Positions 4,162 to 46,766 of a stretch of DNA of 64,000 bases are shown in pieces. Position numbers and translations under genes: made by a program. Position 1 is the stretch's first letter. Each line of letters opens with the position of its first letter. The stretch comes from a bacterium (GTDB taxonomy: Bacteria; Electryoneota; RPQS01): assembly GCA_023382385.1 (NCBI GenBank), contig JAHDVH010000001.1, positions 62,001 through 126,000 of the forward strand, written 5' to 3'. The notes under the pieces are model-generated. The model was not told where the DNA came from. It ran no database searches and saw only the letters and a list, made by a program, of their open reading frames with translations.

Positions 4162-4184
4162 ATTGCGGGATTTGAAACCCAATA

Positions 4185-42648: not shown

Positions 42649-42677
42649 TTGACTTATGAACAAATGTTTTGTATATT
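42649..42677 (+). promoter_or_regulatory. Predicted lexA promoter
   Basis: TTGACT (42649-42654), 17 bp, TATATT (42672-42677). Transcription would start near 42684, giving a 21-nt leader with GAGG before ATG 42705. Confidence 0.7.
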
Positions 42678-42704: not shown

Positions 42705-43331
42705 ATGTCAGATCAACTTACAGAAAAACAACAGCGTGCGCTGAAGTTCATTCAGACCGAGATTCATGAGAAAGGCCGTCCGCCAACGCTTCGCGAGATT
42801 GGCAGCGAGATCGGTGTTTCTTCCACGAATGGGGTCAGATATGTTTTGGATGCGCTCGTGCGAAGAGGCTATCTTGGTCGCAGCCCAATGCTTTCGAGAG
42901 GTATTGAGCTAACCGAACGTTCAATGGTTCAGACTGCTCGGTCAAGTACCCGCGACGTACCAATACTGGGTCGAATTGCCGCGGGTGTGCCGATCACAGC
43001 CACTGAAAACATTGAAGGCAGAGTATCTGCGGATCGCAGTATTGCACCGACGGACGATACTTTCGCACTAAGGGTTCGCGGCGAATCGATGATTGAGGCC
43101 GGAATTCGCGAGGGGGACGTCATTTTTGCACGGCCACAGAGGACAGCCGATACCGGTGATATCGTCGTGGCCTTGATAGGCGATGAGGCAACGGTGAAGT
43201 ACTATCGGCTGATGGGGGACCGGATTCTGCTGGAGCCGGCAAATTCCCGTTTCAAGCCAATCGTCGTGGAGTCGGGGACACCTGGATTCCAGATTCTCGG
43301 CAAAGTAGTCGGACTCATGAGGAAATTTTAG
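42705..43331 (+). CDS. lexA: LexA repressor
   Basis: A 208-residue SOS repressor and autoprotease. It has an N-terminal winged helix-turn-helix (about 1-65, TLREIGSEIGVSS), the cleavage site Ala93-Gly94 in GRIAAGVP, and the catalytic Ser128 (RGESM) and Lys165 (EATVKYY), all intact. ATG 42705 follows GAGG at good distance. A palindrome over its promoter suggests autoregulation. Confidence 0.97.
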   Translation: MSDQLTEKQQRALKFIQTEIHEKGRPPTLREIGSEIGVSSTNGVRYVLDALVRRGYLGRSPMLSRGIELTERSMVQTARSSTRDVPILGRIAAGVPITATENIEGRVSADRSIAPTDDTFALRVRGESMIEAGIREGDVIFARPQRTADTGDIVVALIGDEATVKYYRLMGDRILLEPANSRFKPIVVESGTPGFQILGKVVGLMRKF

Positions 43332-43358: not shown

Positions 43359-43385
43359 AGAATCCGGCTCGAAGAGCCGGATTCT
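43359..43385. terminator. Hairpin after lexA
   Basis: AGAATCCGGCTC and GAGCCGGATTCT form a perfect 12-bp stem with a GAA loop, 27 bp after the lexA stop, followed by GTTTA. The T-run is poor on both strands, but the stem is strong, so it is probably a terminator or a rho-assisted stop. Confidence 0.6.
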
Positions 43386-43409: not shown

Positions 43410-43438
43410 TTGACAAATCAATAAGGTTTGTCTATATT
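43410..43438 (+). promoter_or_regulatory. Strong predicted promoter firing antisense to the PorD-like gene
   Basis: TTGACA (43410-43415), 17 bp, TATATT (43433-43438) is one of the two best promoter matches in the window. The start would be near 43445, inside the 3' end of the minus-strand PorD-like gene. No plausible plus-strand gene begins before 44290. Confidence 0.55.
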
Positions 43439-43439
43439 C

Positions 43440-44291
43440 TCAAGGTGCTTGGGTTTCGCCGAAAATTTGGTTGTATTCCTTGGAATGGGTCGGGTCCATG
43501 CGCCGCAAAACGTCGATCCCTCTGTCGTAGTTGCAGTTTTTCAAGGCTGTGGCGAGGGCGACGTGCTCAGCGTCAAGAATGCTGCTGCGTTTGTCAATGG
43601 GAACCTCGCCTAGTCTGAGTAACGCATAGTGCAGGTAGGCTTTCGAGTCCTCGTACTGCCGTCTTTCATCGTAGTAGAGTCCGGTATAATAGAAGAACAC
43701 GAATTCTCGGTAATTCCTATTACTTTCACCGGTTACTTCCCGCAATAGATCGCTGCGTTTGTCCCAGCCGAAATAGTAAATGGACGACGTGCTGGAAAGT
43801 TGAACACTTCGCGCTTTGTCGAAGTAGCGATCCCCTCCTAACTTCTCATATTTGTCTTCCTCATTCGCAATCAACAGCCAAACATAGAATTCGATCACGC
43901 TCATGAACGGATCGAATGACGCTTGACCGGGAGTATAGGGAGTCCGCATTCCAAACTCCCACCTTTTGTCCTCAAAGCGAGCGTCTCGCTTGTTGGTGAT
44001 GATGAGATTGGCCTTAAACTTGTCTTCTTGCGGGTTTGCATTGTATTCAGTGAAATAGATATTGGCCTGGATGTCCAAGTCATATCCGCCGTCATCACGG
44101 TTCCACGGATGCCGGGTATCTTTGAGGAAATGCACAATGACTGAGTCGATGCCCTGCAATTTCTGCTGCGCCTCTTCGGGCAGTCGTTGCATATCCACCA
44201 TGACTTCGGGGTAAATAAGCTGTGCGCGGCCTGTTTGGCCGCAGATCGCCGAAAAAAGGACGGCAATCCAAAGGAGAATGGACCGCTTCAT
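43440..44291 (-). CDS. PorD/DUF4835-like secreted protein (possible T9SS accessory)
   Basis: A 283-residue protein. ATG 44291 starts a signal peptide (MKRSILLWIAVLFSAICGQ). The mature part has IPE-type strands, then SVIEFYVWLLIANEEDKYEKLGGDRYFDKA, then GWDKRSDLLREV, NRNYREFVFFYYTGL and DSKAYLHYALLRLGEVP. This order (FY..I..D.D.., GG..YF.KA, GW, NR, Y.GLY) matches the pattern of DUF4835/PorD, a T9SS-associated protein of Bacteroidetes. The match is by eye. The predicted promoter places the transcription start at or next to the ATG, so the mRNA looks leaderless. The longer open frame (to 44441) has no signal peptide at its start. Confidence 0.6.
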   Translation of the reverse strand: MKRSILLWIAVLFSAICGQTGRAQLIYPEVMVDMQRLPEEAQQKLQGIDSVIVHFLKDTRHPWNRDDGGYDLDIQANIYFTEYNANPQEDKFKANLIITNKRDARFEDKRWEFGMRTPYTPGQASFDPFMSVIEFYVWLLIANEEDKYEKLGGDRYFDKARSVQLSSTSSIYYFGWDKRSDLLREVTGESNRNYREFVFFYYTGLYYDERRQYEDSKAYLHYALLRLGEVPIDKRSSILDAEHVALATALKNCNYDRGIDVLRRMDPTHSKEYNQIFGETQAP

Positions 44292-45129
44292 GCCGGACAG
44301 TATACGGATTGGAGGGCGGATTGTCAAGATTGGGTTGCTTGGGCTTGCGCTCTGCAGCTCAAAACTGGTTGACCCCGTTATGGCGGCCTTTGAGCGGACA
44401 GCATACTCCACACGAGCTGCTGGTCGGGCAGGAGCAGGCATTGCTGCGGTTGAGCCTGGTTGCCAGTGGCTGAACCCAGCCGTGTCGCACCGGAGTTCGA
44501 TTGCACTTGGCTGGTCAGAACCATTTGGTTTAGCAGAACTCGGCAGCGAGTTCGGGTGTGCTCAGTATAGCGCTCCCCGCTGGTCGGGCGGGATTATGGT
44601 AAGCCGGCTGGGTGATGCATCTTACAGTGAACAGACTGTGCGCGGTGGTGCAAACTACGCCGTTGGTCAAGATCTTTCCTTGGGGTTTGCCGCGAGTTGG
44701 CACGATCTGGCAATCCAGAGCTTACCATCTGGTGACGCAGCGACAGTCGACGTCGGACTGTTGACAACCTTGCGCTCGGACTTGCGAATTGGTGCTGTTT
44801 GGCGCAATTTGACGCGAGCGCAGTTGTCCGACTATGAGGATCGCTTGACCGAGTCGATCACTGTCGGGGGAAGTTTCGATGTTGACTCTCGAACGACGGC
44901 GATGTTGGATGCCGTGCAAGAATCTGGTTTTCCGTTGGAAATCCGTGCAGGTGCCCAAGTTTCAGCGTTCAAGCAACTCATTCTGCGCTGTGGAGTGCTG
45001 TTTGACCCCGCGCAATATGCTCTGGGTCTCACCCTGAAGCATCGACTGCTCTATGCGAATTACGCGCTGCAATGGCATCGCTCTTTGGGTGCGACTCACT
45101 TCATCGGGCTGGATATCGAATTGAAGTGA
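44290..45129 (+). CDS. PorV/PorQ-like outer-membrane beta-barrel protein
   Basis: About 279 residues. Start ATG 44290 gives a signal peptide with Arg/Lys and a hydrophobic run (IGLLGLALC); the next upstream ATG, 44278, is only 1 nt from AAGGAG. After cleavage, RAAGRAGAGIAAVEPGCQWLNPA is the typical opening of PorV/PorQ-type barrels (small residues followed by NPA). Alternating strands with aromatic ends continue to the C-terminus. It could be a T9SS-linked barrel or another outer-membrane protein. Its start codon would overlap that of the divergent PorD-like gene in a shared CATG. No promoter of the local pattern lies directly upstream. Confidence 0.6.
   Translation: MPDSIRIGGRIVKIGLLGLALCSSKLVDPVMAAFERTAYSTRAAGRAGAGIAAVEPGCQWLNPAVSHRSSIALGWSEPFGLAELGSEFGCAQYSAPRWSGGIMVSRLGDASYSEQTVRGGANYAVGQDLSLGFAASWHDLAIQSLPSGDAATVDVGLLTTLRSDLRIGAVWRNLTRAQLSDYEDRLTESITVGGSFDVDSRTTAMLDAVQESGFPLEIRAGAQVSAFKQLILRCGVLFDPAQYALGLTLKHRLLYANYALQWHRSLGATHFIGLDIELK
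44299..44327 (-). promoter_or_regulatory. Near-consensus promoter giving a leaderless PorD-like mRNA
   Basis: On the minus strand TTGACA (44327-44322), 17 bp, TATACT (44304-44299), then GTCCGGC and the ATG at 44291. Counting from the -10, the start site falls on 44292 or 44291, leaving no room for a ribosome-binding site. Confidence 0.7.
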
Positions 45130-46766
45130 TTGTGTTCAGTTGGGTATTCGTTTTGATTTTGCCAATTGTGGCACTATGCCAACCTGCAGAGGAGCGCATC
45201 GAAGACGGGTTGATGTCCGCCGATGAAGAAGGCTATCTGCCCGAGGACAGTGCCTTTGTATTCGGTACGGAGAATGCGCAATCATCGCAGCGTGTTCAGA
45301 TGCTGAATTCTACAGTGTTTGATGCCAATAGCGGAAAGCGCGTTACCGGATCTCATGTTTGGGTCAGGTCGCGCCTCGGAGTGCAAGCGGACAGCCGATT
45401 TCGTACCGATCTGCTGGCAGTACGGCGCAAGTACGATCCACGTGCCTTTGATGAAGTGCATGTATCCATATCCGGCCGCCACGATCCAACGAATGTCACT
45501 TTTGCACTCGGGACATTTCAGCATGACTGGGGATTTGGTCTTGTTTCCAGCGCGGGCTTTGGTGCTGCCAGAAAATTCTCTTATGCAGGCTCAACATTCG
45601 CTCCGCTTGGATCGGGTCTGTCTACCCGCCCGACTTCCCGGGAGTCCAGCTGGTTCTACGGGCTAGCGGCAAGTCGGCGATTCCAGAGACTCTCGGCGAC
45701 GCTGTTCGGCAGTATCAGACCTTGGAATGCTGAAGTCTCTAGCGGCTACGGCATTTTGACTGGCAACTTTCAACCCGCAAGCTCGACAGGCTATTTGCAG
45801 CGGGATCGCGTGGAAGAGCAGCTCCTTGGAGGATCGCTCGAATTTACCACTGAGAATCTCCGAATCGGAACATTTGCGCAGTCCAGCGCGTACTCGATCC
45901 CGCTGGTAGGAATCGGTGATCGCCTTGATCAACTCTCGGCCGTTGCCTCTGCCTCTTGGCGAAATGTAACTGGAACCGGAGAGGCAGTACGTTCCGGAAA
46001 CAAATCAGCCTGGCAAATGGTATTATCTGGGTATACGGGGCATTTTGCAGGCGCGGTCTACACTGTTTACGCTGATCCCGACTACTTTGCACCGCGCAGC
46101 CAGAGTTTCGTCAGCTTTGGCGAGCCGACCACGAATCAGCGTGTTATCGGAGTTCGCAGTTCTTATTCGACCTCTGCGCATACACTGACAGGTGAAATTC
46201 AGAGTTCGAATTCGCCCGCAGCGACACCTACGGTTTCACCTTCGAAGTCCGAGTCTCGGGCCGTCATGTCATGGCTTTACCGTGTCGACAGTTCACTGAA
46301 CCTAGCCTTGCGAGTTGCACGGGGCATTCGTGAAGAGCGTTCATCCGAAACGATTGCAGATCGCACGTATCAAGATGTGCGGCTACTGATAAAGTGGCGC
46401 CGAGGTCTCGAGTGGTCTGCGCGACTGGATGATCGGCGAGCAAGAGACTTAACTGGTGAACGCCCATCTGCTGGCTCTTACGAGCACATTCAAGCGGCAA
46501 AAGTTGACGGAAGAATTCGTGCCGGATTGAGAGTTTCGCTGCATTCGGTGCCCACAGGTGTCGCGCCGCTTCTCGTCTATGAACCAAGTGTGGTTGGCGC
46601 ATATCCCTTGCAAACGATCGCGGGTGACGGCCGAAGGCTGCTTGGATGGCTTGGAGTCGGTTCGCGCAGCTGGAGCATCTTCGCAAAAGTTGGCTGGTCG
46701 ATTGCTTCAAATAACTCCATTGGTGCCACCTCAATCGGTCTGCACGTCAATTACCTAAGTCGGTAG
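45126..46766 (+). CDS. Predicted outer-membrane beta-barrel protein
   Basis: About 546 residues. GTG 45126 overlaps the preceding stop (GTGA) and starts a signal peptide (IVFSWVFVLILPIVALC). The acidic linker at residues 25-45 precedes a long series of short amphipathic strands (e.g. ASRRFQRLSATLFGS, RRGLEWSARLDDRRARD) to the C-terminus, typical of large barrels, with a terminal strand SIGLHVNYLSR. No family recognised. It is translationally coupled with the PorV/PorQ-like gene. Confidence 0.6.
   Translation: MIVFSWVFVLILPIVALCQPAEERIEDGLMSADEEGYLPEDSAFVFGTENAQSSQRVQMLNSTVFDANSGKRVTGSHVWVRSRLGVQADSRFRTDLLAVRRKYDPRAFDEVHVSISGRHDPTNVTFALGTFQHDWGFGLVSSAGFGAARKFSYAGSTFAPLGSGLSTRPTSRESSWFYGLAASRRFQRLSATLFGSIRPWNAEVSSGYGILTGNFQPASSTGYLQRDRVEEQLLGGSLEFTTENLRIGTFAQSSAYSIPLVGIGDRLDQLSAVASASWRNVTGTGEAVRSGNKSAWQMVLSGYTGHFAGAVYTVYADPDYFAPRSQSFVSFGEPTTNQRVIGVRSSYSTSAHTLTGEIQSSNSPAATPTVSPSKSESRAVMSWLYRVDSSLNLALRVARGIREERSSETIADRTYQDVRLLIKWRRGLEWSARLDDRRARDLTGERPSAGSYEHIQAAKVDGRIRAGLRVSLHSVPTGVAPLLVYEPSVVGAYPLQTIAGDGRRLLGWLGVGSRSWSIFAKVGWSIASNNSIGATSIGLHVNYLSR

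Follow-up and report, generated by a model that had tools for sequence, protein, structure and literature searches.

A near-consensus plus-strand promoter, here termed P(+), lies at the stop codon of a porD-like gene and points antisense into it, and its position is kept in every close relative checked. The locus is a lineage-conserved, excludon-like arrangement, and the base-level conservation of the antisense promoter is the most useful result of this analysis. Judged from the DNA, this conservation suggests that the porD-like gene (porD below) and the outer-membrane barrel gene beyond it are deliberately read against each other. The features concerned, with positions in the window (the whole stretch of DNA analysed, 64,000 nucleotides), are the following:

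42705..43331, plus strand: lexA, convergent with porD, with its own promoter at 42649-42677
43360..43384, no strand assigned: stem-loop GAATCCGGCTCGAAGAGCCGGATTC in the lexA-P(+) interval, T-rich tails on either strand, the shared lexA/porD terminator
43410..43438, plus strand: P(+), TTGACA-N17-TATATT, conserved, antisense into porD, predicted start at about 43445
43440..44291, minus strand: porD-like gene (DUF4835), 283 aa, with signal peptide
43445..44289, plus strand: predicted leader of the barrel1 mRNA, 845 nt, fully antisense to porD, with no plus-strand intrinsic terminator
44327..44299, minus strand: porD promoter, TTGACA-N17-TATACT, within the barrel1 signal-peptide region
44290..45129, plus strand: barrel1, PorV/PorQ-like outer-membrane barrel, its start codon overlapping that of porD as CATG
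45126..46766, plus strand: barrel2, the second of the predicted outer-membrane genes, with a 4-nt overlap (GTGA) with barrel1

Conservation of the promoter at the porD stop codon

The -35 hexamer TTGACA (43410-43415) and the -10 hexamer TATATT (43433-43438) of P(+) are separated by 17 nt, exactly as the first-pass annotation had given them, and the -10 hexamer ends 2 nt ahead of the stop codon of the minus-strand gene. Only P(+) and the porD promoter match 11 of 12 promoter positions in the 64-kb window. Genome-wide, the strict pattern TTGACW-N17-TATATT occurs 80 times as compared to 0 for the reversed-pattern control: it is the organism's real promoter consensus, P(+) matches it, and its enrichment extends to most of the phylum except families f4 and f5. 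Among 77 records of strict sites in the own genome, for which gene calling was rough, 41 lie at most 300 nt before a gene start and 13 are directed antisense into a gene, the majority of the latter stemming from one dispersed repeat.

Homologues of porD were present in 37 of the 39 genomes of the phylum. Informative for P(+) were only the 11 genomes of the order that include the porD 3' end, namely nine of family f1 and two of family f2; those with named records are metagenome-assembled. The comparison of synteny and promoter conservation in relatives that the first-pass annotation had proposed detected TTGAC[AT]-17-TATATT at the porD stop, pointing into porD, in all 11 genomes, which share 42-66% porD identity across the two families, and the divergent porD/barrel1 pair is kept throughout the relatives compared as well as in most families of the phylum. 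The -10 hexamer ends 0-2 nt before the porD stop in 10/11 genomes, and the remaining genome has a distance of 9 nt. Between pairs of genomes, identity was 0.95 for the -35 hexamer and 1.0 for the -10 hexamer, as compared to 0.43 for the spacer and 0.30-0.33 for the flanks. The gene upstream of P(+) is lexA in f1 and encodes an SMC-like ATPase of approximately 1035 aa in f2; P(+) thus follows the porD-barrel1 pair and not lexA, and a reading of P(+) as a lexA-linked promoter was discarded, since f2 keeps it beside a different upstream gene. At the porD stop of the sister families that retain the divergent pair P(+) is absent, and it therefore appears, from this distribution, to be an innovation of this order. 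A 10/12 site is present at this stop codon in one sister genome (G034), where chance is a plausible explanation.

The spacer of P(+) contains an inverted repeat, GACAAATC/GGTTTGTC (43412-43432), which is perfect in G001, partial in G002 and G010 and missing from most other relatives; in some of the species it may serve as an operator.

Strict promoters were also observed elsewhere in the genome. A dispersed element of approximately 95 nt, TTGCCCAAATGTTTACAACATTTTTACGAAAACCAC-TTGACTTTTCGTAAATATTGTATTATATT-AGCACCA, present in at least 16 copies in the own genome (e.g., L065:1440-1540, L077:1440-1540, and L167:2006-2106), carries a strict promoter together with self-complementary arms and, upstream, a motif similar to the lexA box; it is often aimed at the 3' terminus of a gene on the other strand. 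Moreover, a strict minus-strand promoter at about position 4164 of locus L146 is directed through a 358-codon ORF whose coding score is low, in antisense to it, with a same-strand gene approximately 1.18 kb further on, which makes this locus a possible second excludon-like case.

The porD and barrel1 genes and the predicted antisense leader

The porD protein scored 55.6 bits with PF16119 (DUF4835), above the cut-off of 25, and 56 bits with the NCBIfam profile T9SS_PorD (NF052317), below the equivalog cut-off of 170; given the latter, PorD-like, the name already chosen in the first-pass annotation, is the right one. The -10 hexamer of the porD promoter ends 7 nt before the porD ATG in the window and 6-9 nt before it in family f1, throughout which this promoter lies in or beside the 5' end of barrel1 and fills the whole divergent gap. 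Owing to this short distance, the porD mRNA is predicted to be leaderless or nearly so, a property conserved in f1, in which case the antisense leader would span it edge to edge. The first-pass annotation had overlooked the porD promoter, as well as the bidirectional lexA/porD terminator and the conservation of P(+).

On the other side of porD, several relatives show a clear signature of the terminator shared with lexA, on one strand or on both, and P(+), lying downstream of the stem-loop, is thereby insulated from lexA. The lexA promoter, TTGACT-17-TATATT, contains GAACAAATGTTT (42656-42672), likely a LexA autoregulation box of the Gram-positive (Cheo) type. A LexA operator at P(+) was rejected because this motif is missing there.

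The barrel1 gene, for which an alternative ATG exists at 44278, and barrel2 are probably part of the same operon. Of 14 aligned barrel1 relatives, 12 match the PorV/PorQ profile NF033709 at E<=0.1 (best 7e-11), and 7 match PorQ; the barrel1 protein of the window itself gave no PorV/PorQ profile match at E 0.1. The genome's type IX machinery includes a SprA_N match of 131.5 bits and 127 matches to the cargo tail Por_Secre_tail. The PorD of Bacteroidota is a binding partner of PorW/SprE, which belongs to the extended translocon (PMC8754138, PMC10994853). Secretion is less efficient in P. gingivalis when PorD is lost and shows no detectable change upon its loss in F. johnsoniae, and PorQ belongs with PorU, PorV, and PorZ to the attachment complex. 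These roles indicate that both partners are parts, or likely parts, of one machine.

The first-pass annotation had placed no plus-strand gene start before 44290, and this held: none of the plus-strand ORFs starting between 43445 and 44290 has family support, and the small ORFs there are not conserved. The leader that it had given as 840 nt would indeed be fully antisense to porD, the length being corrected to 845 nt. A plus-strand terminator was not found within the leader in any of 10 genomes, by the same scan that does find the lexA/porD stem-loop. Its further statement that no promoter of the same pattern precedes the barrel gene was likewise borne out: in the 220 nt upstream of the barrel1 signal peptide, the best plus-strand site reached at most 8/12 in 12/12 genomes, which is no better than shuffled sequence, and a barrel-proximal promoter was rejected on these grounds. 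Proximal sites are also weak, at most 9/12, in the sister families lacking P(+); scores in the sister lineages are somewhat above those in this order (Mann-Whitney p=0.002), a difference to be given little weight since base composition differs. As these families must express barrel1 without P(+) or a strong proximal match, a barrel promoter can evidently escape the scan used here, and the missing match in this order is not proof.

Proposed mechanism and alternative explanations

We propose that P(+) would act as the housekeeping-type promoter of a PorV/PorQ-like operon comprising barrel1 and barrel2 and perhaps extending to the amidase gene. Its transcript would start at the 3' edge of porD, cross all of porD in antisense and enter barrel1. 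Transcription of porD would run the opposite way, beginning at the porD promoter within the 5' end of barrel1 and giving an mRNA with little or no leader. Both RNAs would thus overlap along the whole porD mRNA, each polymerase crossing the promoter of the other. Pairing of the RNAs and cleavage of the duplex by RNase III, for which the genome has a gene (TIGR02191, 241.8 bits, cut-off 166), together with transcriptional interference, would make porD and the barrel operon dampen each other, as is expected by analogy with described excludons and noncontiguous operons (PMC7154746). Both promoters look housekeeping-like, without any sign of opposite regulation, and for this reason the arrangement may be less a switch than a means of keeping two type IX secretion components in a fixed proportion.

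We regard this explanation as a whole as somewhat favoured. The excludon architecture is well supported by the sequence: a conserved distal promoter, a fully antisense leader that lacks a terminator, a barrel gene for which no proximal promoter can be recognised, and a porD promoter that faces P(+) and overlaps the barrel start. Hence the excludon reading of the first-pass annotation stands in part, namely in its architecture; transcription from P(+), its arrival by read-through at the barrel gene and a regulatory effect such as mutual repression are what we infer from that architecture. A more far-reaching version, in which an evolutionarily fixed excludon balancing type IX components and overlapping a leaderless porD mRNA edge to edge was invented in one order and kept through a change of gene order, is put forward tentatively, as its chances fall a little short of even.

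The overlap might also be a passive result of compaction: the intergenic space between porD and barrel1 would have been lost and a distal promoter would have taken over, so that P(+) is the barrel promoter and its transcript crosses porD without any regulatory role. The divergent region is indeed very tight (in G000 and G001 the two start codons share bases, and in most other genomes 18-65 nt lie between them), both promoters are near consensus, and no conserved regulator site was seen except the spacer inverted repeat of a few genomes. However, the edge-to-edge layout is kept in two families at the P(+) end and in all of f1 at the porD end, and an antisense leader of 850 nt without effect seems costly, and we consider compaction alone rather unlikely.

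Another explanation concerns the fate of the transcript, which might stop inside porD, e.g., by the action of Rho, and as a free cis-antisense RNA tune porD only, barrel1 being served by a promoter in the 5' part of porD that is weak or depends on an alternative sigma factor. The leader, with approximately 850 nt, is untranslated and rho lies in the same gene cluster as the porD locus, which makes early Rho-dependent termination possible; such termination inside the leader is the main rival to read-through. The leader, whose C/G ratio is about 1, includes a C-over-G patch that lies near +390 in most genomes and reaches a maximum of 0.14-0.24 over 78 nt. This explanation would also account for the sister families, which express barrel1 without P(+) or an obvious proximal promoter. 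Against it stand the lack of a terminator in the leader, the divergent gap of f1 that is wholly taken by the porD promoter, and the lack of anything marking a discrete RNA: neither an Rfam match at E<=1 nor a strong local excess of synonymous conservation was found, by which a small RNA or riboswitch in the leader was rejected. Overall, a free antisense RNA is judged improbable.

That P(+) serves a small protein or a structured small RNA opposite the porD 3' end is very unlikely. In f1, antisense ORFs of 50-154 codons near the leader start, in a frame registered with the porD codons, would fit the former; however, they are missing in f2, their start codon and length vary, and the frame is presumably open because porD rarely uses TTA, CTA, and TCA codons, and an antisense peptide was rejected as not conserved in f2. 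A structured RNA is opposed by the Rfam result as well as by the poor conservation of the sequence just after P(+). Finally, despite the fact that consensus matches are often accidental, with 6 looser sites expected per 8 kb, a functionless chance match is refuted by the conservation of P(+), as the genome-wide rate predicts only about 0.0001 strict sites per genome in the 10 positions concerned at the porD stop and one was found at this fixed position in 11/11 genomes with diverged surroundings.

Comparison with known systems

Antisense promoters are usually suspected to be noise. Here, an antisense promoter kept by selection at a single base-level position in two families was detected from DNA alone. 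If confirmed, the locus would add an excludon linked to type IX secretion from a lineage without cultured members, and would provide a comparative signature for functional excludons without RNA data, i.e., a strict promoter at the stop codon of the opposing gene together with a downstream gene without its own promoter. Our literature search returned no report joining antisense overlap with type IX secretion.

The locus resembles a divergent pair with a shared intergenic promoter region in that porD lies next to barrel1, in divergent orientation, across most families of the phylum; in this order, however, the barrel promoter apparently lies at the opposite end of porD, at a distance of approximately 850 nt. 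With the noncontiguous operon, such as menE-menC-MW1733-ytkD-MW1731 of S. aureus (PMC7154746), it shares an opposite-strand gene spanned by a transcript serving genes beyond it. By contrast, the stem-loop terminator here splits off lexA and the promoter starts after it, and the sequence predicts no cotranscription of the genes on both sides of the inverted gene; because the upstream gene is separated by a terminator and differs between families, the locus is not a noncontiguous operon as defined. In its predicted working the locus resembles the excludon of Listeria with its long antisense 5' UTR (Sesto et al., 2013, reviewed in PMC7154746): a long mRNA is predicted whose untranslated leader is antisense to the coding region of the neighbouring gene, P(+) and the porD promoter oppose each other, and the double-strand-specific RNase III is encoded. 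The locus differs from the Listeria case in being known from sequence alone, in that both promoters are of the housekeeping consensus, in the predicted leaderless porD mRNA, which the overlap is predicted to cover exactly, and in its partners, which are type IX secretion genes of an uncultured lineage.
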